In this document: positions 12,900 to 35,493 of the stretch, in pieces
Layout of the letters: each line of letters begins with the position of its first letter
Numbering within the stretch: the first letter of the stretch is position 1
NCBI GenBank assembly: GCA_016787895.1
Contig: JAEUTN010000020.1
Span: forward strand, 124,001 to 188,000
Reading direction: 5' to 3'
DNA from: Bacteroidia bacterium
GTDB taxonomy: Bacteria > Bacteroidota > Bacteroidia > B-17B0 > Aurantibacillaceae
Length of the DNA stretch: 64,000 nt
Notes under the pieces: model-generated
Database searches by the model: none
What the model was told of the DNA's origin: nothing
Seen by the model: only the letters and a program-made list of their open reading frames with translations
Position numbers and translations under genes: made by a program

Positions 12900-13385
12900 A
12901 TGAAAACACCAACAATTCTCTTAACAGCGCTGCTTGCCTTTATGCTTTGGTCCTGCGGTGGCAGTGAAAAACCTGCGGATGCACAAACCGGTGGCGAAGC
13001 CCCCAAAAGCATGGTGGCCGATCCCGAATCGTATGATCCAAAACGCGGGGAGGGTAAATGGACAACCGAAAACATTAATCTCGGAGCTACTTTGGATGCG
13101 GCAATGGCCACTGAAGGGGAGAAAATAAGTGGGGTGAAGTGTACCTCCTGTCACAAAATGACGGAGGAAAAATTGGTTGGTCCGGGTTGGAAAGGCGCGA
13201 CCTTAAAAAGGACTCCGGAGTGGATTATGAATTTTATTACCAATCCTGATCCAATGATTGATAAAGATCCTGAGGTGCAGGCCATGCTTGAACTTTGTTT
13301 GGTACGTATGCCCAACCAGAACCTCAGTGACACTGATGCCAGAAACATTCTTGAATACATGCGTAAAATAGACGGAGTTAAATAA
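12900..13385 (+). CDS. Monohaem cytochrome c lipoprotein of the nos operon
   Basis: The 161-residue protein has a lipoprotein signal (lipobox LWSC, Cys19) and one haem c site, CTSCH at about residues 81-85, with a likely Met axial ligand in VRMPNQNL near residue 140. Clade II nos clusters commonly carry such cytochromes, which are thought to pass electrons to NosZ; here it is the first gene of the operon, 19 bases before nosZ, which fits that role. The operon promoter region carries two palindromic sites. Electron delivery to NosZ is inferred from context. Confidence 0.88.
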   Translation: MKTPTILLTALLAFMLWSCGGSEKPADAQTGGEAPKSMVADPESYDPKRGEGKWTTENINLGATLDAAMATEGEKISGVKCTSCHKMTEEKLVGPGWKGATLKRTPEWIMNFITNPDPMIDKDPEVQAMLELCLVRMPNQNLSDTDARNILEYMRKIDGVK

Positions 13386-13404: not shown

Positions 13405-15390
13405 ATGAAAAGCAAAATAACAACAGCAGTAATTGCGGGTTTAGCTTTGGTTTCTGTGATGGAATCCTGCAAACCAAAAAGCACCGGCAATGCCGTTAGC
13501 GGTGATGCCGCCGGTAAAGCGTATGTAGCACCCGGCAAACACGATGAATACTACAACTTTGTCAGTGGAGGTTTCAGCGGACAAATGAGTGTGTACGGTT
13601 TACCAAGCGGACGTTTGCTTCGCGTTATTCCGGTATTCGCGGTCGATCCTGAAAAAGGGTGGGGATACAGCGAAGAAACCAAACCCATGCTGAACACTTC
13701 ACATGGTATTGTTCCCTGGGATGATTTACACCACACCCAATTGTCAAAAACCGAAGGTGAAATCGACGGACGCTGGGTATTTGGTAACGCCAACAACACC
13801 CCCCGTGTAGCCAGAATTGACTTAAAAACCTTCAGAACGGCTGAAATCATTGAACTTCCGAATAGTGCCGGTAACCACTCATCCCCTTTCATCACTGAAA
13901 ATACAGAGTATGTTGTTGCCGGAACCCGTTTCAGCGTTCCTTCGGATAACGCGAATGGCGATGTTCCTATCAGTACCTATAAAGAAAATTTCAAAGGCTA
14001 TTTAAGCTTTATTTCTGTGAACAAGGAAAGCGGAGAAATGGACATTGCTTTCCAAATCGAATGCCCGGGTGTAAACTTTGACCTGAGCCGTGCCGGAAAG
14101 ATGAAATCGCACGGATGGTTCTTTTTCTCATGTTACAATACCGAACAGGCCAACACCTTGTTAGAGGTAAACGCTTCGCAACGCGATAAGGATTTTATCA
14201 TGGCTGTAAATTGGAAAAAGGCCGAAGAGTATATCAAAGCCGGGAAAGGAAAAAAAACACCTGTTAAATATGCTCATAACGTTTACAGCGATGAAAACCA
14301 TTCAGCTACTTCGACCATTAAAACGGAAGTATTGGTGTTGGATTCAAAGGAATTGGCTGACATCTGTTACATGATGCCTTGTCCTAAATCCCCGCACGGA
14401 TGTGACGTGGATCCAACCGGTGAGTACATTGTTGGTAGTGGTAAGTTAGCAGCTTTAATTCCTGTATTTAGTTTTGATAAAATGATAAAAGCCATCGCCA
14501 ATAAAGAATACGATGGGGATTATCTGGGCATACCCATCATTAAATACGAATCGGCTTTGTACGGTGAGGTTAAAAAGCCGGGTCTCGGACCTCTTCACAC
14601 CGAGTTCGACGGTAAAGGAAACGCCTATACCTCTTTCTTTGTGTCGTCTGAAGTAGTGAAATGGAACATAAAGGAATTAAAAGTGGTGGACAGGGTTCCA
14701 ACATACTATTCTGTGGGTCACCTTTGCATCCCCGGTGGTGATTCCAGAACCCCTTCGGCTAAATACCTGATTGCCTATAACAAAATCACAAAAGACCGTT
14801 ACCTGCCTACAGGTCCTGAGTTGTCGCAAAGCGCCCAATTGTACGATATCAGTGGAGAAAAAATGCAAATGATTCTCGATTTCCCGACCATTGGCGAACC
14901 ACACTATGCACAGGCGAGTCCTGCTGCCATTATCGAAAAAAATCAGCTGAAGTTGTTTAAGATTGATGAAAACAAACACCCTTATGCGGCTAAAGGTGAG
15001 GGAGAAGCAAAAGTGGTGAGAAATGGCAACCAGGTACATGTGTATATGACCTCTGTTCGTTCCCACTTTGCCCCTGATAACATTGAAGGAATAAAGGTAG
15101 GTGATGAGGTGTATTTCCACGTAACTAATCTTGAGCAAGACTGGGACGTTCCACACGGTTTCGCAGTAAAAGGTGCATCCAATGCAGAACTGTTAATCAT
15201 GCCGGGTGAAACACAAACCTTAAAATGGGTTCCTGATCGTGTGGGTATTGTGCCAATCTACTGTACCGACTTTTGCAGTGCCTTACATCAGGAAATGCAG
15301 GGTTATGTGCGGGTATCTCCTGCCGGCAGTAAAGTTCCTTTGACTTACCACGTTGGTAAAACAGCGGCTGAAATTCCGGCCTCTAACTAA
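13405..15390 (+). CDS. nosZ: Nitrous oxide reductase, clade II
   Basis: The 661-residue periplasmic enzyme reduces N2O to N2. A seven-bladed propeller domain holds the CuZ cluster; DDLHHTQLS (about residues 110-118) contributes His ligands, with further ones in NHSSPFI and SPHGCDVD. The C-terminal cupredoxin domain holds CuA: Cys620, Cys624 and His628 in CTDFCSALHQEM, with Met631. The signal peptide lacks a twin-arginine motif and ends in a lipobox-like MESC (Cys22), typical of the Sec-exported clade II (atypical) NosZ and unlike the Tat-exported clade I. A hairpin terminator follows, so nosZ and the cytochrome are probably made in excess over the maturation proteins. Confidence 0.97.
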   Translation: MKSKITTAVIAGLALVSVMESCKPKSTGNAVSGDAAGKAYVAPGKHDEYYNFVSGGFSGQMSVYGLPSGRLLRVIPVFAVDPEKGWGYSEETKPMLNTSHGIVPWDDLHHTQLSKTEGEIDGRWVFGNANNTPRVARIDLKTFRTAEIIELPNSAGNHSSPFITENTEYVVAGTRFSVPSDNANGDVPISTYKENFKGYLSFISVNKESGEMDIAFQIECPGVNFDLSRAGKMKSHGWFFFSCYNTEQANTLLEVNASQRDKDFIMAVNWKKAEEYIKAGKGKKTPVKYAHNVYSDENHSATSTIKTEVLVLDSKELADICYMMPCPKSPHGCDVDPTGEYIVGSGKLAALIPVFSFDKMIKAIANKEYDGDYLGIPIIKYESALYGEVKKPGLGPLHTEFDGKGNAYTSFFVSSEVVKWNIKELKVVDRVPTYYSVGHLCIPGGDSRTPSAKYLIAYNKITKDRYLPTGPELSQSAQLYDISGEKMQMILDFPTIGEPHYAQASPAAIIEKNQLKLFKIDENKHPYAAKGEGEAKVVRNGNQVHVYMTSVRSHFAPDNIEGIKVGDEVYFHVTNLEQDWDVPHGFAVKGASNAELLIMPGETQTLKWVPDRVGIVPIYCTDFCSALHQEMQGYVRVSPAGSKVPLTYHVGKTAAEIPASN

Positions 15391-15482: not shown

Positions 15483-16502
15483 ATGACTACACCATCCAAA
15501 AAAATAAGACCACTTTCAAGAGTTTTGCTTTTTCTTTCAGCTGCACTGCTTGTTGTTTCTTTGTTTCTACCCATTTGGAGAATTGATCTGGATGCGCCTC
15601 AATACCCCGAAGGGCTTAACCTGATGATTTATGCTGATAAATTGGGAGGAAATGTTGAGATTATAAACGGACTGAACCATTACATCGGAATGAAAACCCT
15701 GCACACCGAAGATTTTATTGAATTTACCGTGTTGCCATACTGCATCCTGTTTTTCGCGGCCTTTAGTTTACTCGCTGCCATTGTGGGCAGAAAACGCGTG
15801 CTGTATACGCTCTTGTCCTTATTTGTGCTTTTCGGTATAGTGGCCATGGTGGATTTCTGGCGATGGGAATACAATTACGGACACAATCTCGATCCAAACG
15901 CCGCTATCATTGTTCCGGGTATGGCCTACCAGCCTCCTTTGATTGGCTTTAAACAACTTTTGAATTTCGGCGCGTATTCAATTCCGGATAATGGCGGTTG
16001 GTTATTTATTTTAAGTGGTGTTTGTATGTTGTTGGCAACGCTTCTGGAGACTGGAGTTCTCAATAGATTTGCAAAAAATAAAAACCTTGCCTTATCATCA
16101 ATCGTGGTATTAAGTTTCGCAACGTCCTGCAGTTCTTCAGGGCCGGAACCTATTGCCCTAAACAAAGACAATTGTGACTATTGTAAGATGACCATTTCCA
16201 ACGTTCGTTTCGCGACGGAACTCATCACTTCCAAGGGCAGGGTGTATAAGTTTGACGACGTTTCCTGTATGATCAATTACAAAAAGGAAAATTCAAATAT
16301 GGCATCCGCTAAATTCTATATCAGCGATTACCTTGAACCGAATGCCTTATTAAAGGCCGACTCTCTGTTTTATGTTTCCGGAGAAGCAGTCGGAAGTCCG
16401 ATGGGTGGGGACATAGCCGCTTTTTCGAATTCCGATAGTGCTCAGGCTTTTTTGGTTAGATTATCGGCTCAACCCCTTTCCTGGGCTCAAATAAGCGAGT
16501 AA
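15483..16502 (+). CDS. nosL: Four-helix membrane domain fused to NosL copper chaperone
   Basis: One continuous 339-residue frame joins two proteins that are usually separate. Residues 1-195 hold about four membrane helices (near 13-31, 84-101, 106-124, 173-190), a membrane protein type seen next to nosL in Bacteroidota. Residues about 197-339 are NosL: a hydrophobic stretch ending in a lipobox-like LSFATSC (Cys216), then CDYCKMTI with Cys231, Cys234 and Met236 that would bind Cu(I), then KFDDVSCMI. NosL is known to deliver copper for assembly of the CuZ site. The internal lipobox suggests either a retained fusion or cleavage and lipidation of NosL. nosD follows after 3 bases. Confidence 0.88.
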   Translation: MTTPSKKIRPLSRVLLFLSAALLVVSLFLPIWRIDLDAPQYPEGLNLMIYADKLGGNVEIINGLNHYIGMKTLHTEDFIEFTVLPYCILFFAAFSLLAAIVGRKRVLYTLLSLFVLFGIVAMVDFWRWEYNYGHNLDPNAAIIVPGMAYQPPLIGFKQLLNFGAYSIPDNGGWLFILSGVCMLLATLLETGVLNRFAKNKNLALSSIVVLSFATSCSSSGPEPIALNKDNCDYCKMTISNVRFATELITSKGRVYKFDDVSCMINYKKENSNMASAKFYISDYLEPNALLKADSLFYVSGEAVGSPMGGDIAAFSNSDSAQAFLVRLSAQPLSWAQISE

Positions 16503-16505
16503 GTT

Positions 16506-17741
16506 GTGATCAGAATCTTTTATATTTTCCTGCTATTTTTTTCGGCTTTCCTCTCGCAAGCAAACAATGTTCATGTTGGAAAAAGCCAGGTTTTTTCAAC
16601 TATAAAAGAAGCCATAGCCAAATCCAATGCGGGGGATACCATTTGGGTTCACGAAGGCATTTACCGGGAAGGAAATCTGGTAGTGGATAAACGTCTGATA
16701 TTAATCGGGAAAAATTACCCCATACTTGATGGAAATAAAAAGCACGAAGTGTTGTCGGTAAAAGCCGATTTTACCTGCGTGAAAGGGTTTAAAATACAAC
16801 ATTCAGGCTACGCTTCGCTTGACGATCCCTGTGGAATTAAGGTTTACGAAAGCAGGGGAGTAGAGATCACCGATAACATTCTGGATGATAATTTTTTTGG
16901 CATTTATATTCAGTATGGGAAACAATGTGTGGTGAAAAACAACCGCATCAGGGCTTACGGGGTGGAGGAACAGCAAATCGGCAACGGCATACACTGCTGG
17001 AAAAGCGATAGTTTATTAATCATTGGCAATAGGATTGAAGGGCACCGCGATGGTATTTATTTTGAATTTGTCACCAATTCGGTGATCTGGAGAAACCGGT
17101 CCTTTAACAATATCCGCTATGGTCTGCATTTTATGTTTTCCAACAACGATGCATATATCACCAATTATTTTAAACACAACGGCGCGGGGGTGGCCGTAAT
17201 GTTTACTAAAAATGTGAAAATGTTCAATAACAGTTTTGAAGAGAACTGGGGAGACGCTGCGTATGGACTGATGCTTAAAGAAATATCAGATAGTTACATC
17301 ACCGGAAATCATTTTTTGAAAAACACAACCGGCATTTACATGGAGGGCACTAACAGAATTCTGGCAGAGCATAACACCTTTCAAGCGAATGGATGGGGAA
17401 TGAAAATTCAGGCGAGTTGCATGGACAACGAAATTCGTTCGAATAATTTTATTGGAAACACTTTTGATGTCAGTACCAATGGCAGCACAGTATTAAACAC
17501 CTTTAACGGCAATTATTGGGATAAATACAACGGGTATGATCTGGATAGAAACAAAACCGGAGATGTACCTTACCACCCCTTGAGTGTGTTTTCGGTCATT
17601 GTTGAACAAACCCCGCCGGCCATGTTATTATTTCGTAGTTTTATGGTGGATCTTTTGGATAAATCAGAAAAAATAGCCCCCAGTTTGACGCCTGATCATT
17701 TTGTGGACAATCAACCACTTCTTCATTCTCTCCCCCTGTAA
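16506..17741 (+). CDS. nosD: NosD, periplasmic beta-helix protein for CuZ maturation
   Basis: The 411-residue protein starts at GTG, 3 bases after nosL. A signal peptide (MIRIFYIFLLFFSAFLSQA) is followed by a right-handed parallel beta helix of the CASH type, seen as repeated N/G-rich turns such as NNRI, GNRIEGHRDGIYF and TGIYMEGTNRI. NosD acts with the NosFY ABC transporter in assembling the copper-sulfur CuZ centre. Its C-terminal end (residues about 365-411) leaves the repeat pattern. Length and operon position fit the family. Confidence 0.95.
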   Translation: MIRIFYIFLLFFSAFLSQANNVHVGKSQVFSTIKEAIAKSNAGDTIWVHEGIYREGNLVVDKRLILIGKNYPILDGNKKHEVLSVKADFTCVKGFKIQHSGYASLDDPCGIKVYESRGVEITDNILDDNFFGIYIQYGKQCVVKNNRIRAYGVEEQQIGNGIHCWKSDSLLIIGNRIEGHRDGIYFEFVTNSVIWRNRSFNNIRYGLHFMFSNNDAYITNYFKHNGAGVAVMFTKNVKMFNNSFEENWGDAAYGLMLKEISDSYITGNHFLKNTTGIYMEGTNRILAEHNTFQANGWGMKIQASCMDNEIRSNNFIGNTFDVSTNGSTVLNTFNGNYWDKYNGYDLDRNKTGDVPYHPLSVFSVIVEQTPPAMLLFRSFMVDLLDKSEKIAPSLTPDHFVDNQPLLHSLPL

Positions 17742-17744
17742 ATT

Positions 17745-18458
17745 ATGATTGTTGTAGAAAATCTGTGCAAGCAATTCGGAAAGCTGCAGGTGTTGGACCA
17801 TGTTAACCTGACCTGCAGCAAAGGGGAGTGTATAGCACTCATTGGGCCAAACGCTTGTGGAAAAACCACCCTGATAAAAAGTATTCTGGGCATGGTGATA
17901 CCTGACAGCGGCTCCATCCGATTCAATGGTGAATTCATTAACCGGCAATACCTTTACCGGAACAGCATTGGGTATATGCCTCAAATTGGCCGTTACCCCG
18001 ACAATATGTCGATTGGCCAGATAATGGAGATGATCAGGGAAATACGAAATTACCAGTCGAATACAGATGAAGAACTTCTTGAGGCATTTAAACTCAAAGA
18101 TTTGTTTCAAAAGCGCATGCGTACCCTTTCAGGCGGCACCACGCAAAAAGTAAGTGCTACCCTGGCTTTTTTGTTTCATCCTCAGGTACTGATATTGGAT
18201 GAACCTACAGCAGGACTCGATCCACTGGCCTCTGAAATTTTGAAAGAAAAAATTGTTAAGGAAAAGAAAAACGGACGTTTAATACTCATTACCTCTCACC
18301 TTTTAAGTGAATTGGACGATTTGGTGACGCAGATTGTATTTATGCAAGAAGGCAGGGTGCATTTTCACAAAACAGTTGAAGCGCTTAAATTGGATACGGG
18401 TGAAGAAAAACTTTCCAAAGCCATTTCCTCAATTTTAAAACAAAGTCAGCATGAATAG
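17745..18458 (+). CDS. nosF: NosF, ABC transporter ATPase
   Basis: The 237-residue ATPase shows Walker A GPNACGKT (34-41), the signature LSGGTTQ (128-134), Walker B VLILDEP (148-154) and the switch His185 in ITSHLL. It powers the NosDFY complex that matures NosZ. It starts 3 bases after nosD and its last 8 bases overlap the start of nosY, so the three are translationally linked. Confidence 0.95.
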   Translation: MIVVENLCKQFGKLQVLDHVNLTCSKGECIALIGPNACGKTTLIKSILGMVIPDSGSIRFNGEFINRQYLYRNSIGYMPQIGRYPDNMSIGQIMEMIREIRNYQSNTDEELLEAFKLKDLFQKRMRTLSGGTTQKVSATLAFLFHPQVLILDEPTAGLDPLASEILKEKIVKEKKNGRLILITSHLLSELDDLVTQIVFMQEGRVHFHKTVEALKLDTGEEKLSKAISSILKQSQHE

Positions 18459-19218
18459 GATTATCAAATTTGTGATCCTGGATATTTTGAAGAACAAGGT
18501 GGTAGTGGTGTATACCTTTATTTTGGCTGCACTTTCCTGGAGTGTTTTTGCCCTTGAAGACAACAGCACGAAAGGTTTACTCACGCTTTTGAATGTGGTT
18601 TTGTTGATTGTACCCCTGGTGTCGGTTATTTTCTCAACCATCTATTTGTACAACAGCTCTGAATTTATTGAGTTGTTGCTCAGCCAGCCGGTAAAACGAA
18701 GTAAGATCTGGTTCAGTCTTTTTATTGGTTTGAGCCTATCGTTGTTGTTTGCGTTTTTTGTTGGTGCCGGTATTCCCATTCTGATTTATGCTCCGCCTGA
18801 TGTAAGTCTTATGATGCTGGTGATGGGCATTATTATTTCTACTGTATTTGTATCCATCGCGTTTTTAGGTTCAGTATTTACACGTGATAAAGCAAAAGGT
18901 ATAGGGATTGCCATCCTGCTCTGGCTCTTTTTTGCCCTCTTGTTTGATGGTCTGCTTCTTTTTCTGTTGTTTCAGTTCTCCGACTATCCCATTGAAAAAG
19001 TAGTGGTGTTTATTTCCGCCTGTAACCCCATTGATCTTGCCAGAATTATGATTCTTCTGCATTTGGACGTTTCAGCCATGATGGGTTACACGGGGGCGGT
19101 GTTTAAGGACTATTTCGGAAGCCGCTCGGGCAGTGTTGTTGTGCTTTTGATTCTTACGGTATGGGTGTTTTTGCCCTATGCCATTTCCCTGTCAAAATTT
19201 AAAAAAAAGGATCTTTAA
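18451..19218 (+). CDS. nosY: NosY, ABC transporter permease
   Basis: This 255-residue protein has six hydrophobic helices (near 20-36, 50-70, 90-112, 118-140, 148-172, 228-246) in the ABC2 permease pattern and begins inside the end of nosF. It completes the NosDFY maturation complex. Its stop codon is immediately followed, with no spacer, by the stop of ric on the opposite strand, so no terminator separates the convergent genes. Confidence 0.93.
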   Translation: MNRIIKFVILDILKNKVVVVYTFILAALSWSVFALEDNSTKGLLTLLNVVLLIVPLVSVIFSTIYLYNSSEFIELLLSQPVKRSKIWFSLFIGLSLSLLFAFFVGAGIPILIYAPPDVSLMMLVMGIIISTVFVSIAFLGSVFTRDKAKGIGIAILLWLFFALLFDGLLLFLLFQFSDYPIEKVVVFISACNPIDLARIMILLHLDVSAMMGYTGAVFKDYFGSRSGSVVVLLILTVWVFLPYAISLSKFKKKDL

Positions 19219-19986
19219 CTATATCATATCTCGTACAGCGATTTCCAGATTAATACATTTTGGAAACAAGATGTTGTTTTCGAGATGAATGTGTTGGTGC
19301 AGGTCTTCTTCAAATTCATTGAGTTTTGCAAAACTAACCCTGTAAGTTGCACAGGCTTCTGCCGGTGGAGTGTAATTATCGGTTAAGATCCTGATGGATT
19401 TAAACAATTCACCTACCGTTTCGTGTTCCAGCTCCATCATGCGAATGGGTTGTTGTGCGGATGAAAATGCCGGAAAATGGCGAAATTCGGGATTCGCATG
19501 ATTGGTGCTTAGTTGTTTGATATAGGGAAAGAGCACCTGTTCTTCTTTGTACATATGGGCGGTCAGTTCCTCAGCGGCTTCAGCAAATAAAGTGGCGATG
19601 TCTATTAATTCCGGGTGCTCCTGGCCATGTACCCGGGCTACTTTATTGGTGTATTCAATTAGTAATGGGATGGCGGACTTGACATACCGGTGATGAGTAT
19701 GTACAATGTAATCCGCCAAAAATCCTGCATCCCAGGTTTGGAAATTTTGAGAGGCTGTTCCTGCCTGGCCTTCTACCTTAGTTAATTCGCTCCTGATTTC
19801 CGTATAATTTAGATTTTTTTGACGACAGACACTTGAAAGTGTTTTGTTTCCGCCACAACAAAAATCAATGTTGTATTTTTTGAACACCTCCGCTTTGCGG
19901 TAATTTTCAGCTACTTCTTGTCCAATCGTGTTTTCAGTGTCTTCTGCCACGGACAACTGGTATTCAAAGCTTTCACTATTTTTCAT
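19219..19986 (-). CDS. ric: Iron-sulfur cluster repair di-iron protein (RIC/YtfE/ScdA)
   Basis: The 255-residue protein has the ScdA N-terminal domain with DFCCGG (Cys43, Cys44) and a haemerythrin-like domain whose His and Glu ligands are visible in HTHHRYVKS, HMYKEEQVLFPYI, ELEHETVGE and HQHIHLENNILFP. RIC proteins repair Fe-S clusters damaged by NO or oxidants and may release iron. Its place between the nos and nor operons fits nitrosative-stress defence. No TGAY-N4-GTCA or Rrf2-type site was found upstream; it may be read from the thioredoxin-fold gene 40 bases before it. Confidence 0.94.
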   Translation of the reverse strand: MKNSESFEYQLSVAEDTENTIGQEVAENYRKAEVFKKYNIDFCCGGNKTLSSVCRQKNLNYTEIRSELTKVEGQAGTASQNFQTWDAGFLADYIVHTHHRYVKSAIPLLIEYTNKVARVHGQEHPELIDIATLFAEAAEELTAHMYKEEQVLFPYIKQLSTNHANPEFRHFPAFSSAQQPIRMMELEHETVGELFKSIRILTDNYTPPAEACATYRVSFAKLNEFEEDLHQHIHLENNILFPKCINLEIAVRDMI

Positions 19987-21420: not shown

Positions 21421-21460
21421 TCGGATAAAAGTATCCGAATTAATCAAATTGTTACATTTA
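21421..21460 (+). promoter_or_regulatory. norC promoter with Rrf2-type operator
   Basis: TCGGATAAAAGTATCCGA at 21421-21438 is an inverted repeat with perfect 7-base arms, and TACATTTA at 21453-21460 is a near match to the -7 element. The operator would cover the -33 region, the same geometry as at the Rrf2 gene (32 versus 34 bases from operator start to -7 element). Confidence 0.65.
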
Positions 21461-21550
21461 CGGCAAAATCCAAACCCAGAGAAACTGTTGGGGGTTTCAA
21501 TCAGCTTGAAAGAAAGAGGATTTTGGTCGTATAACAAATACCTGAAAAGA

Positions 21551-21976
21551 ATGAAGTTCAATTCGATGATAAGGTGGGTTTACTTTTTCCTGTGCACCCT
21601 GTTTATTGGTTATTCGTTAGTACTCTATCAAGCTTCAGGTACCCCGGATTCGGTGGATTACGATGTTAAAAAAGCCGCTTCAGGCCATTTGGTCTGGCAA
21701 AAATACAATTGCCAGGCCTGTCATCAGCTGTACGGATTGGGAGGATACCTTGGCCCCGACTTAACCAATGTGTATTCCGTGAAAACAAAAGGCCCGGATT
21801 ACATCAGGGCGCTGATCCGGTCGGGTTCAAAACAAATGCCGGGTTTTCAATTAACGGAGGGAGAAATGAACGAGCTTCTTGAGTTTTTGAAATCAACGGA
21901 TGAGAGCGGAGTAGCCGATCCCAGGGAGTTTAAAACAACAGCATCAGGCATGATACAGGCAAATGAAAAACACTGA
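21551..21976 (+). CDS. norC: NorC-like membrane-anchored cytochrome c
   Basis: The ATG at 21551 gives 141 residues: one N-terminal membrane anchor (about 8-25, VYFFLCTLFIGYSLVLY) and a periplasmic monohaem domain with CQACH (about 53-57) followed by LGGYLGPDLTNV, the usual NorC pattern. The likely Met axial ligand is in KQMPGFQL. NorC passes electrons to the haem b of NorB. The last 14 bases overlap the norB start, so the subunits are translationally coupled. The upstream region carries both palindromes. Confidence 0.92.
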   Translation: MKFNSMIRWVYFFLCTLFIGYSLVLYQASGTPDSVDYDVKKAASGHLVWQKYNCQACHQLYGLGGYLGPDLTNVYSVKTKGPDYIRALIRSGSKQMPGFQLTEGEMNELLEFLKSTDESGVADPREFKTTASGMIQANEKH

Positions 21977-23309
21977 ATTTTCGATAGCCAGACTATACTT
22001 GTACAGCGCTTTATTACTGTTGGTTCTGGGCTTGTGTTTTGGCCTTCTTGGTGCCATAGTTTATGTGAAGCCTGATTTTTTAAAGGATAACCTCGGCTTC
22101 GTTTCCTTGCGCCCCATGCACGTGAGCTCCGTTTTATTTTGGATTCTGCTGGGTGCTACAGGTGGTATTTACGCTTCCTTACACGCGCTTGTGCCGGGAT
22201 TTCAGAAGCCGGGTCTGGCGAAATTACAATGGGTGCTCTGGCTTATTGCTATCGCAGGCATCTATGGTTCGTATATTACAAAAAACTTTGGCGGGAGGGA
22301 GTACTGGGAATTTACACCCATCTGGGCACTTCCAATTGGAATGGCCTGGTTGTTTTTTGTTTGGAACGTGCTGCGTGTTTTGCGAAGAATAAAAGATTGG
22401 CCGGTGTACCTGTGGATGTGGCTGACGGGTTCCGTATTTTTCTTTTTTATTTTTATAGAAAATTACCTTTGGCTCTTCCCTTATTTCAGGCAGCATTTTG
22501 TGAGCGACATGACCATACAATGGAAGGTGAATGGCTCCATCGTTGGTGCCTGGAATCAACTGCTATATGGCGCCTTATTTTACCTGATGGACCGCATTTC
22601 GGGGAATACCGGTACCGGCCGCAGTAAACTTGCTTTTTTTATGTATTTCCTTGGGCTGTTCAACCTGATGTTCAATTGGGGGCACCATATTTATACACTG
22701 CCCACGCAGGCTTATGTTAAATATGTTGGATACGCGGTTAGTATGACAGAATGGATATTTTTAATCAAAATCATCTATAACTGGAGGTCAACCGTAAGCG
22801 CTGCACAAAAACACGGCCACTACTTTCCGTATCGTTTTGTAATGGCTTCTGATTTTTGGGTGTTCATCAATTTATTACAAGCCCTTATGATGTCGATTCC
22901 GGCGATTAATATTTACACACACGGCACGCATGTTACCGTTGCGCACGCCATGGGCACTACCATAGGTATTAACAGCATGATTCTGTTGGCCCTGTGTTTC
23001 GAATTTCTTTTACCATCAAAACAAAACGAAGGGACAAGGCCCGGCATCCTTAATTTTGCATATTGGACCCTTCAGGTTTCACTTTTTATCTTTTGGTTAT
23101 CACTTTTACTGGCAGGGATTAAAAAAGGGCTTTGGCAAATGAGTGCAACGCAAACTGTGTATTCGAAAATGATGGATTCGCTGCAGCCGTATTTTATAAG
23201 CTTTCTGGTTGCCGGTTGTGCTTTGTTTTTGGCACTTTTTGTTTTGGCCGGAATATTGGTTAAACCACTTTTTACAAAACGCCAACCAGAAGCTGCCAGA
23301 AATGCCTGA
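21963..23309 (+). CDS. norB: NorB-like nitric oxide reductase catalytic subunit with altered metal ligands
   Basis: The 448-residue, about 12-helix protein belongs to the NOR branch of the haem-copper oxidase superfamily and pairs with NorC. Conserved residues by position against Pseudomonas cNOR are His53 (low-spin haem), His241-His242 (FeB), Glu263 (cNOR Glu280) and His328 (haem b3). Three expected positions differ: cNOR His207 corresponds to Asn190, Glu211 to Val194 and Glu215 to Asn198, in VNGSIVGAWNQ; cNOR His349 corresponds to Met330 in AHAMGTT. The spacing (51 residues from Asn190 to His241) matches cNOR exactly, and Gly195 and Trp197 are conserved. It is thus a non-canonical NOR, or a relative with another activity. 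It overlaps norC and the next small gene. Confidence 0.85.
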   Translation: MKNTEFSIARLYLYSALLLLVLGLCFGLLGAIVYVKPDFLKDNLGFVSLRPMHVSSVLFWILLGATGGIYASLHALVPGFQKPGLAKLQWVLWLIAIAGIYGSYITKNFGGREYWEFTPIWALPIGMAWLFFVWNVLRVLRRIKDWPVYLWMWLTGSVFFFFIFIENYLWLFPYFRQHFVSDMTIQWKVNGSIVGAWNQLLYGALFYLMDRISGNTGTGRSKLAFFMYFLGLFNLMFNWGHHIYTLPTQAYVKYVGYAVSMTEWIFLIKIIYNWRSTVSAAQKHGHYFPYRFVMASDFWVFINLLQALMMSIPAINIYTHGTHVTVAHAMGTTIGINSMILLALCFEFLLPSKQNEGTRPGILNFAYWTLQVSLFIFWLSLLLAGIKKGLWQMSATQTVYSKMMDSLQPYFISFLVAGCALFLALFVLAGILVKPLFTKRQPEAARNA

Positions 23310-27946: not shown

Positions 27947-28351
27947 GTGAAAGTTTCTTTGTTTATAATTCTGGTGTTAAGTATCATGCTGCAAAGCTTC
28001 AGCAAAATCATTGTGGTGTCCAATTATTTGCTCAACAAACAGGAGATTACACTTCGGTATTGCGAAAATAAAGCTAAACCCGCTTTGCGTTGTCAGGGCA
28101 TGTGTCATTTAAAGAAACAACTCGCAGAAGAAAATGCCAAAAACAGTCAGAGCAGGTCACCGGGAAGTGAATTGGGCGAAGTCGTTTTGTTTCAGGTGGA
28201 AACCGAATCTTTAATAAAATTTCCTTTTGTCACTAAATTGCACAACTACCCCGCTTGTCCTGGCGTGGAAACAACAAGCTACACGAATGCCATTTTCCAT
28301 CCCCCTTCCGTCAATCGCGGCTTCTATCGTATGAGCACCAGGCCTTGCTGA
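27947..28351 (+). CDS. Small secreted Cys-containing protein of unknown function
   Basis: The 134-residue protein starts at GTG and has an N-terminal hydrophobic signal (VSLFIILVLSIMLQSFSK). The mature part begins NYLLNKQEITLRYCENKAKP and continues RCQGMCHLKKQL, with Cys39, Cys49 and Cys53 forming a CxxxCH-like cluster, and further cysteines at YPACPG and the terminal TRPC. I recall similar small proteins next to metal TonB receptors in Bacteroidota, but can name no function. Here it is followed by a YtkA-like lipoprotein and a copper-type TonB receptor, so a metal-related role is an inference from context. Confidence 0.7.
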   Translation: MKVSLFIILVLSIMLQSFSKIIVVSNYLLNKQEITLRYCENKAKPALRCQGMCHLKKQLAEENAKNSQSRSPGSELGEVVLFQVETESLIKFPFVTKLHNYPACPGVETTSYTNAIFHPPSVNRGFYRMSTRPC

Positions 28352-28451
28352 CATTAGTCTAGGGCTGTGAATTAATTACTGTATTTTAATTATCATTATT
28401 TAATCTGGAAATGCACATAACTAGTGTGCGTGTAACATTATATTATACATT

Positions 28452-29297
28452 ATGAAAAATCGAATTCGAATTCTGCTATTGTTTTTAGCAGCAGGTCTTT
28501 TTACCGTAGGTTGTAAAAAAGAAGAAACAAAGCCTGCCCCAAGCCCAACACCGCCCACTCCAACACCAACTGAAACGATGACCAAAGTGGGTGAAACCTA
28601 CCTGGCAGGATCAGGAGCAAAAGCCATTGTTTACGCGAAGAAGGCTTTTGAAACCGGTTACAATGAAGTATATGTGGCACTTTACGATTCCGCAGATGGC
28701 AGCAAACTCAGCCGGGGGCACTTTGAAGTGCTTCCAATGATGGACATGGGAATGATGCAACATGCCTGTCCCGTTGAAAACACGGAGGATACCACAACAA
28801 CAAACGGTTATTTTGCATCCGTTGTTTATTTTTCAATGGCAGGCACCTCCTCCCAGTGGAGTCTGAACTTCAGTTTTCATAACCATAAAAATGAACGACA
28901 TGGGGAAGGCAGTTTAGGTGTTGAGGTCAAAGCTAGTTCACCGTCAAAGTTCAAAACAACCATGTTAAGTTTAGATAGCAACAAGGTTTTGTTTTTGTCT
29001 TTTGTTGAGCCTTCAAAACCTGTGGTGGGAATCAATAATCTTGAAATTGTACTTCACCATAAAAAATCAGGTATGGAGTATGTGCCAGTTGAGAATTACA
29101 CCATTGAAATTGAACCCAACATGCCAAGCATGGGCCATGGTTCTCCCAACAACGTCAATCCGGTTCACATGGGCCAAGGGCACTACAAAGGAAAAGTGAA
29201 TTACACGATGACCGGTTTGTGGCAAATCAAGTTGAAGATTTACAAAGCAGGGGTATTGATAAGCGATGATCAGTTTTTTGAAATGACCCTGGATTGA
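28452..29297 (+). CDS. Met/His-rich YtkA-like lipoprotein, probable copper handling
   Basis: The 281-residue lipoprotein (lipobox TVGC, Cys21) has a Pro/Thr linker to about residue 40. It carries Met/His clusters MMDMGMMQHAC (about 97-107) and a C-terminal YtkA-like beta domain with PNMPSMGHGSPNN, HMGQGHYKG and MTGLWQIKLKI. YtkA/FixH-type domains occur in copper-protein assembly genes. The stop overlaps the ATG of the TonB receptor (TGATG), so the pair is translationally coupled. I infer that it binds copper delivered by the receptor. Confidence 0.82.
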   Translation: MKNRIRILLLFLAAGLFTVGCKKEETKPAPSPTPPTPTPTETMTKVGETYLAGSGAKAIVYAKKAFETGYNEVYVALYDSADGSKLSRGHFEVLPMMDMGMMQHACPVENTEDTTTTNGYFASVVYFSMAGTSSQWSLNFSFHNHKNERHGEGSLGVEVKASSPSKFKTTMLSLDSNKVLFLSFVEPSKPVVGINNLEIVLHHKKSGMEYVPVENYTIEIEPNMPSMGHGSPNNVNPVHMGQGHYKGKVNYTMTGLWQIKLKIYKAGVLISDDQFFEMTLD

Positions 29298-31294
29298 TGT
29301 TCAAACGAGCCATTTTAATTTTGTTCTGGTTTTTTACCGGGAGTCTTTGTTCGCAAACCACGGACAAGGACTCTTTGGTTAAAACCATTGATTTGGAGGA
29401 AGTATGCATCATCAAGGATGGGGATAAAAATCAGTCTTTTGGTTTTTTTCGCAGCAGTAAACTGGCCAGCACCGAGGATATTCTGGCCCGAATGCCGGGG
29501 GTGAATCTTACCAGGCGCGGCGCTTATGGATTAGAACCCGGTCTGCGCAATTACAATGGAACGCAGAGCAATTTGGTGATTGATGGTATGCGCATGTATG
29601 GGGCCTGCACCGACAAAATGGATCCGGTTTCCATATACATTGAACCGGGCAACCTGCAAAGCATTGAAATTGCGCAGGGCGCTTCAGGGGCCCGGGCCGG
29701 CAGCACCATTGGAGGACAGATTAACATGATCATGCGGGAACCGGAGATCAATTGTCACAACCGTTTCAAAGGTGTGTTGGCACAATCGTATATGAGTGTA
29801 AACAAAGGGTACAACAGCAATTTTAATTTCGAACAGTCTTCTGCCAAATGGGCTTATCGCCTGAGCGCTACTTACAGAACAGCCGGAAATTATATGGCAG
29901 GTGGAGATAGCCTGATTGAGCACTCAGGTTATACCAAAGCCAATCTTTCGGCGAATGTGTTGTACCGGATCAATGAAAAACACCGGCTCAAACTGGATTT
30001 GCTGGGTGACTGGGGCAGAAACATAGGATACCCGGCTTTGCCCATGGATGTGGGAAGAGCGGATGCCGGAATTTACGCCTTAACGCACAACTTAACAATC
30101 CAAAATGGCGTGTTTAAACAAAACGAATTAAAAGTGTATTACAATTCTGTGTATCACGAAATGGATGACACCCAACGCCCCGAGGCGCCTATGCACATGG
30201 ATATGCCGGGCTGGAGTCAAACACTCGGTTTTTATAATGAATTAAGCGGCAGAGGAAATCTGAAATTGCGTTTAGATTATCACCAGGTTTATACCAGAGC
30301 TGATATGACCATGTACCCGCCTAACGAAGCGGTAATGTACATGCAAACCTTACCTGAAAATAATTTGCATGATGTGGGAATCGCAGCCGGAAAAACCTTT
30401 CAGTTTCAGGAGCAGCAACAAATTCTTATGAATTTCAGAATGGATTTTTACGCCCAGGCAGCGGTCGATGGTTTTGGCGCGTCGCAGTGGACCGTTTATG
30501 ATGAGAACATCACGATCACTCAAAACAATCTTTTGAAAAACGCCAGCCTCAGTTACTCTAAAAAAATCAAACAACACAGCCACTTGCTTTTCACCCTGGC
30601 TTATGGAGAACGCATTCCAAGTTCCAACGAACGTTACGGGTATTATTTATTTAACCGCCAGGATATGTATGACTACCTTGGGAATCAGCACCTGAAGCCG
30701 GAACAATCCATTCAGGGAGAACTACGTTTTGAACAAAAATTTAAAAACATAGAGTACTTCGCGAATTTATTTTACCATCATAATGTTAATTACATTTATG
30801 CTTACCGTTTGGATGGCTACAGCCAGATGACCATAGGCGCTCTGGGATTAAAAACCTATAAAAATATTTCTTACGCAGTCACTCAGGGATTTGAAGCAGG
30901 GGCTAAAGCCTCTTTAGGTGAATCGTTTTTTTATATCGCGAATTTAAAGTTTGTTTTGGCTCAAACTTATGAGGGCAAAGCCCTTCCATTGGTGCCTCCC
31001 TTTAAATTACAACATGCTTTAAGGTACAGCTATAAATTGTATCAGTTTCAATTAGAGCATGATTTTGGCGCAGCGCAGAACAGAATCAATCCGGATTTCG
31101 GGGACAAAGCAACGCCGGCCTTTAACTTGATTAATTTAAGAGCTTCCCGTAATTTTATCATCAGGAACAAAGTCCTTCAACTGGCCCTGGCCTGTGAAAA
31201 TGTGTTCGATCTTTTGTACCATGAGCACCTCGATATTGCTCAGGTGCCCCGTTTCGGCAGAAACCTGATGATTAACCTGAATTTTATTTTTTAA
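29297..31294 (+). CDS. TonB-dependent outer-membrane copper receptor, OprC/NosA-like
   Basis: The ATG at 29297 gives 665 residues: signal peptide, a short plug domain (about 30-150; LARMPGVNLTRRGAYGLEP, then VIDGMRM) and a 22-strand barrel ending in Phe (NLMINLNFIF). Cys104 and Met108 in GACTDKMDP and His287 and Met289 in YHEMDD match the CxxxM and HxM residues that bind Cu(I) in Pseudomonas OprC. OprC and its relative NosA supply copper, in NosA's case for nitrous oxide reductase. The gene therefore probably feeds NosZ and cbb3 oxidase encoded nearby. The MHMDM cluster at 299-303 may add ligands. Confidence 0.9.
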   Translation: MFKRAILILFWFFTGSLCSQTTDKDSLVKTIDLEEVCIIKDGDKNQSFGFFRSSKLASTEDILARMPGVNLTRRGAYGLEPGLRNYNGTQSNLVIDGMRMYGACTDKMDPVSIYIEPGNLQSIEIAQGASGARAGSTIGGQINMIMREPEINCHNRFKGVLAQSYMSVNKGYNSNFNFEQSSAKWAYRLSATYRTAGNYMAGGDSLIEHSGYTKANLSANVLYRINEKHRLKLDLLGDWGRNIGYPALPMDVGRADAGIYALTHNLTIQNGVFKQNELKVYYNSVYHEMDDTQRPEAPMHMDMPGWSQTLGFYNELSGRGNLKLRLDYHQVYTRADMTMYPPNEAVMYMQTLPENNLHDVGIAAGKTFQFQEQQQILMNFRMDFYAQAAVDGFGASQWTVYDENITITQNNLLKNASLSYSKKIKQHSHLLFTLAYGERIPSSNERYGYYLFNRQDMYDYLGNQHLKPEQSIQGELRFEQKFKNIEYFANLFYHHNVNYIYAYRLDGYSQMTIGALGLKTYKNISYAVTQGFEAGAKASLGESFFYIANLKFVLAQTYEGKALPLVPPFKLQHALRYSYKLYQFQLEHDFGAAQNRINPDFGDKATPAFNLINLRASRNFIIRNKVLQLALACENVFDLLYHEHLDIAQVPRFGRNLMINLNFIF

Positions 31295-31326: not shown

Positions 31327-32562
31327 TTAGGTCAGTGGAAATTCAATTTCTGATCTGCGTTTAAATTGAGAGACAAATAAAAAGAAAGCCCCGGCTGACA
31401 GGAGTAGTGCCACTATAAACAAGGTTTCATTCACATTGGGAATTACAAAGTAGCTGAAGGAAGCAACACCCTGTATCGCTAATACCAGCTCATTAAAAAA
31501 CACTCCGGATAAAAACAACACAAATCCCAATGCACTCAGGTGGTTTCTTTGAATTAAATTCTGCACATAACTGTACACCAGTAAAAATACACTGATTACG
31601 GCCAATAGCACAAGGTGCAGGTAAGCAATAACAATGGGCCTGAAGCCAAAGGCCAGTTTCGCGATAATAGGCACTGTTGAGCCCAGTTGCAATAGCAATT
31701 TTATACTGAAGCCCAGTATCACAAACAGGAACACATACACACTGAGTTTATCGGGAGCTGAAACCTGCACCTTTAATTTTTTGAGGTGTGTCAGCACTTT
31801 TATCCATCCGAAAAGTTGCACCAAAGCGGCCAGGATAACAAGGATGTATAACCACAACGGTATGTTGGCCCATAGTACAGAGAGAAAGTAAGCAGGAATA
31901 GCTGAAGTAAAAAACAAAGTAAAAATGCTTTTGCTGTATGGAATTTGTGGGAATTTTTCTTTCAGTGCATTAAGTGCCAATCCAAGGCAAGAGAAGAGAA
32001 AAAAGCCATTGTATTGAAAATGCAGGTAAAAGTAAACGGCGGCCAGATACCAGTTTTCATTAAAGTTTCGTGTGGCCATAATGTAAGCAAGGTAAAGCGT
32101 GCCTACCGATGAAAGGATGTTAAACCAAAGAGCAGCCCTGAACCAGTTGTTTTCCCTGTCATTCTCTTCTGTCTTACGAAGGTCTCTGAAAAAATAATAG
32201 GCAAAAAAGCAGGCAATAACAATTGTACCCGAAGATAAAACAATGGAACTGATGGAATATCCATACACAAAAAACGAGAGGAGCATACCGTAGGAACAAA
32301 GCAGGTTGCAGGCTAATAAACGGTTGTAGGGTTGGGGTGAAATGACGTTGTTTTTTTGGTGCAGGTACCAAACCAGCAAGGCATAGATGGTTTGGCTGAT
32401 CCAACCGGCGAAAGCAAAGTGAGAATGGGCGTATTGAATGTATTTTTGATTAAAATAGGGAAACTCAAAACCTATCTTGTAACGCATGAGTGTACCTAAA
32501 AGTGCTACTATAAAAAGATTAAGTAGTGAAAAGCCAAGCCAAAAACGCGTTCTGAATATCAT
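31327..32562 (-). CDS. Degenerate haem-copper-oxidase-like membrane protein
   Basis: The 411-residue protein has about 12 membrane helices and no name that I can assign. Three of its His positions follow the spacing of CcoN from this window: His48 in YAHSHFAFAGWISQ (CcoN His59, low-spin haem), His181 in YFYLHFQYNGFF (CcoN His206, CuB) and His316 in AYLHLVLL (CcoN His344/346). Intervals are 133 and 135 residues against 147 and 140. The His-His pair expected near residue 231 is missing (AYFLSVLWANIP). It could be a haem-binding relative such as an NnrS-like protein or an inactive subunit. It is divergent from the HMA protein, sharing an Fnr-like site. Confidence 0.72.
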   Translation of the reverse strand: MIFRTRFWLGFSLLNLFIVALLGTLMRYKIGFEFPYFNQKYIQYAHSHFAFAGWISQTIYALLVWYLHQKNNVISPQPYNRLLACNLLCSYGMLLSFFVYGYSISSIVLSSGTIVIACFFAYYFFRDLRKTEENDRENNWFRAALWFNILSSVGTLYLAYIMATRNFNENWYLAAVYFYLHFQYNGFFLFSCLGLALNALKEKFPQIPYSKSIFTLFFTSAIPAYFLSVLWANIPLWLYILVILAALVQLFGWIKVLTHLKKLKVQVSAPDKLSVYVFLFVILGFSIKLLLQLGSTVPIIAKLAFGFRPIVIAYLHLVLLAVISVFLLVYSYVQNLIQRNHLSALGFVLFLSGVFFNELVLAIQGVASFSYFVIPNVNETLFIVALLLSAGAFFLFVSQFKRRSEIEFPLT

Positions 32563-32695
32563 ACGTACCTGTTAATTCTTTTTCTCCTGCCATCCTTTAT
32601 TAATCCGGGTTGTGAACCTAAAGGTAGGGCCAGTCAACCTGCAGTGTGCCTGGCTTTTACTTCCCGAAGGTATTCCGGAGAACAAGATAAAAGCA

Positions 32696-32759
32696 TGACA
32701 TTTGTCAGTTCAATATCACGCATTTATCAACAGGCGGTTCATTGTGTGATATACCTTTG
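32696..32759 (+). promoter_or_regulatory. Fnr-like site and promoter for the HMA protein gene
   Basis: TGACATTTGTCA (32696-32707) is a palindrome with the shared core, and TACCTTTG (32752-32759) is an exact -7 element 32 bases before the TTG start. The site centre lies about 64 bases before the expected transcription start, a position at which Crp/Fnr proteins can activate. It also lies 133 bases upstream of the divergent HCO-like gene. Confidence 0.65.
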
Positions 32760-32791
32760 CATTGTTTTTATAAATTTAAACTGTTATTGCC

Positions 32792-33085
32792 TTGGAATCA
32801 CTTAAAATACAGGTCGAAAACCTGAAGTGCGGAGGTTGTGCCAACACCATTAAAAATGGCATTCGCGAATTGAAAGGGGTAAATGAGGTGTTGGTGAATC
32901 CCGAAGAACAATGGGTGGAAATCCGCCATGAAAAGGCCATTGACGAGAACGGCATTCTTGAGAAGCTGAAAGCCATGGGTTACCCCAAAGCGGGAACCAC
33001 AGAAGGCCTGGAGAAGTTTGGAAGAAATCTAAAATCCTACTTTAGTTGTGCCATTGGCAGGCTGGAAGGGGAGGATGAAAAGTAG
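32792..33085 (+). CDS. Heavy-metal-associated (HMA) domain protein
   Basis: The 97-residue protein starts at TTG because no ATG lies in range. An HMA ferredoxin-like fold occupies residues 1-66 with the metal site CGGC (Cys13, Cys16) in NLKCGGCANTI; a short tail with FGRNLKSYFSCAIGRLEG follows. Such proteins are cytoplasmic copper chaperones that can load P1B ATPases. Its position just ahead of the cbb3 genes and the ccoI-like ATPase elsewhere in the window suggest that role, which is inferred. Confidence 0.88.
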   Translation: MESLKIQVENLKCGGCANTIKNGIRELKGVNEVLVNPEEQWVEIRHEKAIDENGILEKLKAMGYPKAGTTEGLEKFGRNLKSYFSCAIGRLEGEDEK

Positions 33086-33363: not shown

Positions 33364-35493
33364 ATGGAATTACAAAAATTCAGCTACGACAACAAAATTG
33401 TAAAACAGTTCGCTTACGCCACCATGCTGTGGGGGCTTGTGGGCATGCTGGTCGGACTTATCGCTGCGCTGCAGCTGTTTATCCCGGCCTTAAATTTTGA
33501 TTTGCCTTACACCAGTTTCGGCAGATTAAGACCCATTCATACCAATGCTGTCATCTTTGCCTTTGTGGGGAATGGAATTTTTATGGGCGTGTATTACTCC
33601 CTGCAACGCCTTTTAAAGGCACGAATGTTCAGCGATTTTTTAAGTGCCATTCATTTCTGGGGGTGGCAGCTGATCATTGTTCTGGCTGCATTAAGTCTGG
33701 CACTGGGTTACACCACCGGCAAAGAGTACGCCGAGCTGGAATGGCCAATTGATATTTTAATCACCTTAATTTGGGTAGTGTTCGGCTGGAACATGTTTGG
33801 TACCATAATACGCCGTCGCGAACGTCACCTTTATGTTGCCATCTGGTTTTACATTGCCACTTTGGTGACCGTAGCCATGCTCCACATAGTAAACTCTATT
33901 GAAATTCCGGTTTCTCTGACAAAATCCTATTCCTGGTATGCGGGGGTGCAGGATGCTCTGGTGCAGTGGTGGTACGGCCACAATGCGGTGGCATTTTTCC
34001 TTACCACTCCGTATTTGGGTTTGATGTATTATTTTATTCCCAAAGCGGCCAATCGCCCTGTATACTCATACCGTTTGTCCATCATCCATTTTTGGGCTTT
34101 AATTTTCCTTTACATCTGGGCCGGCCCTCACCACTTGTTATACACTTCTGTTCCTGATTGGGCACAATCTCTTGGTGTGGTATTTTCGGTGATGCTCATC
34201 GCGCCGTCGTGGGGAGGCATGATCAACGGTTTGCTCACCCTTCGCGGTGTGTGGGACAAGGTGCGTGAAGACATTGTTTTGAAATTTATGGTGGTGGCCG
34301 TTACCGCTTATGGTATGGCCACTTTTGAAGGACCAATGCTTTCTCTTAAAAGCGTAAATGCCATTGCCCACTTTACCGATTGGATTGTAGCACACGTGCA
34401 CGTTGGGGCCCTGGGCTGGAATGGTTTCCTCACATTTGGTATCCTGTATTATCTCATTCCAAAAATGTTCAACACCCGTTTGTACTCCAACAAACTGGCC
34501 AATCTGCATTTCTGGATAGGAACACTGGGTATTTTACTCTACGCTGTGCCTATGTATTGGGCCGGTTTCATGCAAAGTTCCATGTGGAAAGATTTCACTC
34601 CTGAAGGCCAATTGAAATGGCAGTTTCTGGATACGGTGACCAAAATGATTCCTTTCTATGCCGCACGTGCAGTGGGCGGAACCTTGTACCTCACCGGTGT
34701 AATTATCATGACTTATAACCTGATTAAAACCGTTAAAATGGGTTCTTTCACCGCAAATGAGGAAACAGAAGCCATGGCTTTGAGCGGTGAATATCATTCT
34801 CACGCAAAAGACCACTGGCACCGCTGGATAGAGCGCAAACCCATACAATTTATGATTGTGAGTTTGGTGGTAGTAGCTATAGGTGGTGTAATTGAATTTG
34901 TACCTGCCTTTTTGGTAAAATCCAACATCCCTACCATTTCAAGTGTGAAACCCTATACGCCGCTTGAGTTGGAAGGTCGCGATATTTATGTGCGTGAAGG
35001 ATGTTACACCTGCCACTCTCAAATGATACGGCCTTTCAGAAGTGAAACCGCCAGGTACGGAGAATACTCAAAAGCCGGAGAATTTGTTTACGATCATCCT
35101 TTCCAGTGGGGTTCAAAACGCACTGGTCCGGATTTGGCACGCGAAGGCGGCAAGTACCCCGACAGCTGGCATTACAATCACATGTTGGAACCCAACTCCA
35201 TGTCTCCCGGTTCCATTATGCCTACCTACAGTTGGCTGTTGGATGATGACTTCCAGGCCTCAGGAATTGGAGCAAAAATCAGGGCGATGCAAACCCTTGG
35301 TGTTCCGTATCCTGAAGGCTACGATAAAATTGCCGAAGCCGACATGATGAAACAAGCAGAACAAATTGCCGCTAGTTTAAAGAAGGATGGAATTGAGACG
35401 GATGCACAAAAGGAAATTGTGGCCGTGATCGCTTACCTGCAACGATTGGGTAAGGACATCAAAAACGCAGATCAAACATTAACCACCAAATAA
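33364..35493 (+). CDS. ccoN: Fused cbb3 cytochrome c oxidase subunits I and II (CcoN-CcoO)
   Basis: The 709-residue protein reduces O2 to water with high affinity. Residues 1-460 are CcoN, with low-spin haem ligand His59, CuB ligands His206, His256 and His257, and the haem pair His344 and His346. A linker helix (about 495-518) leads into a CcoO domain with the haem c motif CYTCH (547-551) and the downstream MSPGSIMPTYSWLL Met ligand. Fusion of the two subunits is common in Bacteroidota and removes the need for a separate ccoO. All catalytic residues are present. It follows ccoS and precedes ccoQ. Confidence 0.97.
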   Translation: MELQKFSYDNKIVKQFAYATMLWGLVGMLVGLIAALQLFIPALNFDLPYTSFGRLRPIHTNAVIFAFVGNGIFMGVYYSLQRLLKARMFSDFLSAIHFWGWQLIIVLAALSLALGYTTGKEYAELEWPIDILITLIWVVFGWNMFGTIIRRRERHLYVAIWFYIATLVTVAMLHIVNSIEIPVSLTKSYSWYAGVQDALVQWWYGHNAVAFFLTTPYLGLMYYFIPKAANRPVYSYRLSIIHFWALIFLYIWAGPHHLLYTSVPDWAQSLGVVFSVMLIAPSWGGMINGLLTLRGVWDKVREDIVLKFMVVAVTAYGMATFEGPMLSLKSVNAIAHFTDWIVAHVHVGALGWNGFLTFGILYYLIPKMFNTRLYSNKLANLHFWIGTLGILLYAVPMYWAGFMQSSMWKDFTPEGQLKWQFLDTVTKMIPFYAARAVGGTLYLTGVIIMTYNLIKTVKMGSFTANEETEAMALSGEYHSHAKDHWHRWIERKPIQFMIVSLVVVAIGGVIEFVPAFLVKSNIPTISSVKPYTPLELEGRDIYVREGCYTCHSQMIRPFRSETARYGEYSKAGEFVYDHPFQWGSKRTGPDLAREGGKYPDSWHYNHMLEPNSMSPGSIMPTYSWLLDDDFQASGIGAKIRAMQTLGVPYPEGYDKIAEADMMKQAEQIAASLKKDGIETDAQKEIVAVIAYLQRLGKDIKNADQTLTTK

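Follow-up and report, generated by a model that had tools for sequence, protein, structure and literature searches.

Haem-copper oxidases have a fold with pseudo-threefold symmetry and hold their haems in the periplasmic half of the membrane. The members of this superfamily with which the protein described here is best compared are the nitric oxide reductase subunit NorB (PDB 4xyd and 3o0r) and the cbb3 oxidase subunit CcoN (PDB 3mk7 and 8smr). Two further membrane proteins are relevant, namely NnrS (PF05940), the gene for which is in Proteobacteria a core member of NO regulons together with dnrN (ric), nor and nos (PMC1274295), and NosB of clade II nos clusters, which is still uncharacterised and the gene for which is fused to nosL in some flavobacteria (PMC9697520). 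In a survey of Danish sewage sludge, more clade II nosZ carriers belonged to the Bacteroidota than to any other group (PMC11409646).

The window, i.e. the whole stretch of 64 000 bp that was analysed, is from a Bacteroidia bacterium (Aurantibacillaceae; contig JAEUTN010000020.1 of assembly GCA_016787895.1, positions 124 001 to 188 000) and is a denitrification island. Genes for a nos-type cytochrome c (12900–13385), nosZ (13405–15390, nos_propeller), a nosB-nosL fusion (15483–16502) as in the flavobacteria, and nosD, nosF and nosY (16506–19218) lie on the plus strand and are followed by ric, encoding a di-iron repair protein of the ScdA/DnrN type, on the minus strand (19219–19986) and by norC and a non-canonical norB on the plus strand (21449–23309). 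The island also includes Rrf2, nrdDG, ccoNO and ccoP genes. Names were assigned using Pfam, while ccoP, ccoG and nrdDG were named from their sequences. The norB product (21963–23309) is missing the helix-6 FeB histidine (WKVNGSIVGAWNQ), retains the helix-7 His-His pair and has H-x-M, not H-x-H, in helix 10, which suggests that its low-spin haem may be His/Met-ligated; these peculiarities are conserved in Bacteroidota homologues.

The gene of interest here, an intact open reading frame of 411 codons on the minus strand (31327–32562), is approximately 16 kb from nosZ and beside cco. On one side is a plus-strand block (27947–31294), possibly for copper uptake for NosZ, of genes for a 134-aa protein containing a cysteine/histidine motif, a YtkA-like protein and a TonB receptor rich in Met. 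On the other are a divergently transcribed gene for an HMA-domain protein (32792–33085, plus strand) and a ccoNO fusion (33364–35493, plus strand; COX1 407 bits, and FixO). A genuine cbb3 subunit I is encoded by the latter; it is the intact counterpart of our protein, which is not itself a CcoN that has all its ligands and belongs to a ccoNOP operon. A preliminary description made from the sequence had the gene share an Fnr-like site with the HMA-cco genes. This could not be upheld, as TTGATNNNNATCAA with up to two mismatches has no match in the gap between them (32563–32791), and its 63 matches over the whole window are no excess over the 60 expected from shuffled sequences.

Of the 60 genomes sampled (that of the window and those of relatives), 18 carry a copy, and 532 relatives were confirmed by scanning GTDB genomes. 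Judged by their labels, the best 80 of the 532 are nearly all from Bacteroidota, one being a MAG labelled Bifidobacterium, probably wrongly. Within the family, identity declines smoothly from 79 % to 24 % with no damage to the frame, and R27, H46, W54, H181, Q183, K288, Q292, H316 and E358 are identical in all 97 sequences compared. Therefore, this is a maintained gene, neither a chance open reading frame nor one in decay. Searches of Pfam and NCBIfam with the single sequence and the family returned nothing meaningful, and no match was found in the PDB by sequence, using either the single sequence or a family profile. The copy found on a Tunicatimonas plasmid bears the annotation 'hypothetical protein', and no description of the gene was found in the open-licence literature.

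An AlphaFold (AF2) model built on 70 homologues (pLDDT 90.9, pTM 0.92) has 12 long helices, in agreement with the approximately 12 counted previously, and the only high-probability PDB matches to it found with Foldseek were haem-copper oxidases. Compared using VIA, the model matches the nitric oxide reductase 4xyd_A with Z 34.6 over 396 residues at 3.3 Å, CcoN (3mk7_D) with Z 34.2 over 402 residues, and aa3-type oxidases with Z around 30, and the 12-helix subunit I fold spans the whole chain. Hence, an unrelated fold, which would have spoken against the oxidase-subunit origin proposed earlier from haem-type histidines lacking a CuB site, was looked for and not found, and the protein is, by its predicted fold, a member of the haem-copper oxidase superfamily, best called a new, unnamed variant of it.

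The sequences are much further apart, with only approximately 11–14 % identity to NorB. Pfam COX1 (PF00115) does not match the protein at E≤10 and matches only one of 18 relatives (0.058), and hhalign comparisons of the family to each oxidase family singly were insignificant. Only a combined NorB+CcoN profile produced an in-order, full-length alignment, which covers 391 columns and scores 37.5 (P 7e-4), against 17.6–36.6 for controls that were reversed, circularly shifted or block-shuffled. In our own dynamic programming alignment of profiles, the in-order arrangement scored 76.1, other rotations 53–64 and within-helix shuffles 29.4 (sd 5.7). Thus, the sequences agree weakly with the oxidase fold.

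As the fold is pseudo-threefold symmetric, the in-order register carries a caveat. A circular permutation was considered, as the helix-2 motif AHSHFAFAGW resembles AHVHVGALGW of helix 10, and was set aside as the leading reading because the in-order arrangement wins against both the combined NorB+CcoN and the NorB profiles. With CcoN alone the in-order and rotated arrangements tie, and with CtaD and a 430-aa oxidase-like family the best scores are at other rotations, which would reassign the haem ligands. This second unnamed family (A3; 420–450 aa) is of similar length to ours, is weakly similar both to it and to COX1, and is likewise found in nosZ genomes (nosZ is present in 17 of 18 strong carriers). 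It differs in its His motifs, in adjoining the gene for a DUF1858/DUF2249 protein, near qNOR or nos, and possibly in its helix order. Its weak COX1 match pairs its helix 2 with oxidase helix 10, and its profile scores favour an order rotated relative to the oxidases, so it may be circularly permuted. Examples are at L195:1549-2835, L196:7182-8474, L198:1323-2597, L199:975-2273, L219 and L225, and on pSymA of S. meliloti (L237:8232-9590).

In the in-order register, the pair of histidines in helices 2 and 10 that ligate the low-spin haem is present. The first ligand is predicted to be His46 (codon 32425–32427, minus strand, as are all codons that follow), which is invariant (70/70 in alignment A2; 97/97 overall) and aligns with the helix-2 His of NorB and CcoN. 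The second is predicted to be the invariant His316 (31615–31617), aligned to the second residue of the helix-10 HxH/HxM motif in a context, F-x-x-x-[IV]-x-A-[HY]-x-H, that is shared with CcoN. The earlier choice of His48, His181 and His316 was correct in that all are present and the last two are invariant in the 97 sequences. It missed His46, which, rather than His48, occupies the ligand position; His48 (32419–32421), the second histidine of an HSH motif, is 98 % conserved (68/70 in alignment A2, with Asn in the other two). The helix-6 His of NorB also has a counterpart, His181 (32020–32022), which by eye and by comparison of motifs by hand corresponds to the CuB/FeB histidine, and the H-x-x-x-[E/N]-G pattern around it resembles that of NOR. 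The remaining ligands are gone, as they are relative to both NorB and CcoN. In the same register, the position of the proximal histidine of the high-spin haem is occupied by Tyr314 (31621–31623; Tyr in 96 % of the family, Phe in divergent members). Of the three CuB/FeB histidines H181 alone remains, as helix 7 (residues 211–229, 31876–31932; limits from the model) contains no histidine. The absence of a His-His pair for CuB, remarked on previously, extends to helices 3 and 11. With H46 and H316 retained and the Tyr314 ligand and helix-7 pair lost, one low-spin haem site looks intact on this alignment, and the usual binuclear centre cannot be formed. Most conserved polar residues of the bundle are in its periplasmic half.

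Our best guess is, therefore, a catalytically dead member of the haem-copper oxidase/nitric oxide reductase superfamily, i.e. an oxidase subunit that has been retained without its binuclear centre. That the protein is nevertheless active as an oxidase or NO reductase, through an unusual active site, might be argued from the subunit I fold, the invariant H181, and Asn185 and Gln249, which by-hand comparison places near the positions of Glu211 and Glu280 of NOR. This we regard as scarcely credible, given that there is no in-order proximal histidine for a high-spin haem, that no His-His pair is found in helix 3, 7 or 11, so none is recovered by any four-helix rotation, and that the sampled relatives also have true COX1 enzymes.

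The preliminary description had proposed a survey of co-occurrence with nor and nos, and the link proved to be strong. Among the 60 genomes, nosZ is in 16 of the 18 carriers and in 6 of the 42 non-carriers (p 6e-8). A set of 296 genomes from across the phylum includes 44 strong carriers, of which 35 have nosZ and 41 at least one of nosZ, qNOR and cNOR (odds ratio 32, p 9e-16). These p-values ignore relatedness and so measure the strength of the association rather than independent events. The family is also found in qNOR genomes that do not include nosZ. Conversely, no copy is detectable in 49 of 100 nosZ-positive genomes, so the gene is not universally required. A nos, norB/norC, ric or cytochrome c marker lies within 10 kb in 68 of the 80 loci, and co-occurrence and operon structure together support an accessory role in the respiration of N2O and NO by Bacteroidota.

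In 67/80 loci the gene directly follows a Crp-family gene of the same strand, often touching it, and in 41/80 a fasciclin-domain gene is next downstream. The Crp-family gene would suit a redox, NO or O2 sensor that signals to the adjacent Crp/Fnr regulator, a role raised in the preliminary description for which we found no specific support. It is very improbable, as the protein has no signalling domain, it is with ric and cytochrome c that the versions in nos operons are linked, no Crp gene adjoins the copy in the window, and the operon pairing is more simply explained by co-regulation. An assembly factor or a carrier of metal or haem for NosZ, NOR or cbb3, for example of copper together with the HMA, YtkA and TonB proteins, would account for the position in the window between the 134-aa/YtkA/TonB block and the HMA gene with ccoNO beyond it, for the recurrence of that block in 23–30 of the 80 loci, and for the conservation of the HSH motif and H181. 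We consider this unlikely, as the block is missing at most loci and presence of the gene tracks nosZ and NOR, whereas COX1 is in 60/60 sampled genomes.

Other arrangements link the gene directly to nos. On the Tunicatimonas plasmid (Cytophagales) and in G329, the order is Rrf2-ric-gene-cytochrome c-nosZ-nosB-nosL-nosD-nosF-nosY (for the plasmid also summarised as ric-gene-cytochrome c-nosZ-(nosB)-(nosL)-nosD). In G048, which has nosZ and no NOR-like COX1 hit, the gene heads a cytochrome c-nosZ operon. In two species of one genus (G132 and G250), the gene runs on into the cytochrome c gene without interruption of the frame, directly ahead of nosZ. The linker of 29 codons includes no stop or indel but has no third-position bias, so an internal start may still yield two proteins and separate translation is possible. 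This adjacency to the cytochrome c is the best argument for a relay of electrons, and it is quite possible, though we propose it tentatively, that the protein is a dead oxidase homologue serving as a haem-b accessory that passes electrons from quinol to the nos cytochrome c in N2O and NO respiration. Against a relay stand the nosZ-positive genomes that have no copy, the unbiased linker and the distance from nosZ in the window, as well as several nosZ-less genomes of the Flavobacterium type where the gene is found with qNOR and ric and no cytochrome c is needed.

The latter genomes (e.g. G079 and G226, where the gene follows qNOR and ric) fit better with the main rival to the relay, which is protection from NO in the manner of NnrS. 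A haem-containing membrane protein, induced with ric, NOR and nos, would bind or buffer NO or shield iron centres, doing the job of NnrS in Proteobacteria. NnrS was absent from the 60 sampled genomes, and our protein is not itself NnrS, as there is no match to PF05940 and no profile similarity in either direction. The two are alike in length, in having many membrane helices and a His-rich helix 2, and in accompanying genes for NO stress and denitrification. Thus, of the NnrS-like role suggested earlier, it is the genomic niche that stands and not the sequence relationship. For this role speak the Rrf2-ric-gene, qNOR-ric-gene and Crp-gene-norC-norB arrangements (the gene precedes norC-norB in G036), the copies in qNOR genomes without nosZ, and the globin-family and hemerythrin-like genes that recur nearby. 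The gene is in the company that nnrS keeps in Proteobacteria (PMC1274295). However, the gene is in the nos operon of G048, a genome without a NOR hit, the in-order alignment leaves no five-coordinate haem site for NO, and neither operon adjacency to nor in-frame continuity with the nos cytochrome c is explained. We therefore view NO protection as a serious alternative that is rather doubtful.

The relay would operate as follows. The protein would hold one bis-histidine low-spin haem b, ligated by H46 and H316, in the membrane, in its periplasmic half. It would transfer electrons between the quinol pool and a lipoprotein, the cytochrome c for which the gene next to nosZ codes; this cytochrome would in turn feed NosZ and, where present, a cytochrome-c-dependent NOR. 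It could in this way take the place of NosR or NosGH, and no NosR- or NosGH-like electron module was seen in the nos clusters examined. We infer haem binding, the feeding of NosZ and, from gene context, the transfer of electrons from quinol via haem to the cytochrome c. The stricter version, in which an oxidase/NO-reductase fold without a catalytic centre has become a dedicated quinol-to-cytochrome c relay for the clade II N2O reductase of Bacteroidota and is the missing electron-supply module of this lineage, is on balance unlikely. On either the relay or the protective role, the protein is probably an unrecognised helper, as electron carrier or nitric-oxide protectant, of the greenhouse-gas-consuming NO/N2O pathway. 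A conserved, unannotated protein with an oxidase fold in nos operons is a concrete target for knock-out, and one that bears on how the greenhouse-gas sinks formed by Bacteroidota are wired or protected.

NosB is likewise a membrane protein from clade II nos clusters that has yet to be characterised, but the protein described here is not NosB, as the LNHYIGM and YGHN motifs (PMC9697520) are absent from it and are in the product of the nosB-nosL fusion, which also includes the NosL domain. A further protein of approximately 604 aa with no Pfam match (L044:4740-6554 and homologues) recurs in nos/nor islands, at 23 of the 80 loci. At two loci, two copies of our family flank a single nos operon, and in both cases one copy is beside nosY; the other is with the cytochrome c gene in L229 (G091) and with ric and a hemerythrin-like gene in L230 (G178). 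Finally, the 98-kb plasmid of Tunicatimonas pelagia (NZ_CP120684.1; L248) carries a complete clade II nos operon including ric and the gene, and this operon lies near a Tn3-family transposase gene, providing a route for horizontal transfer.
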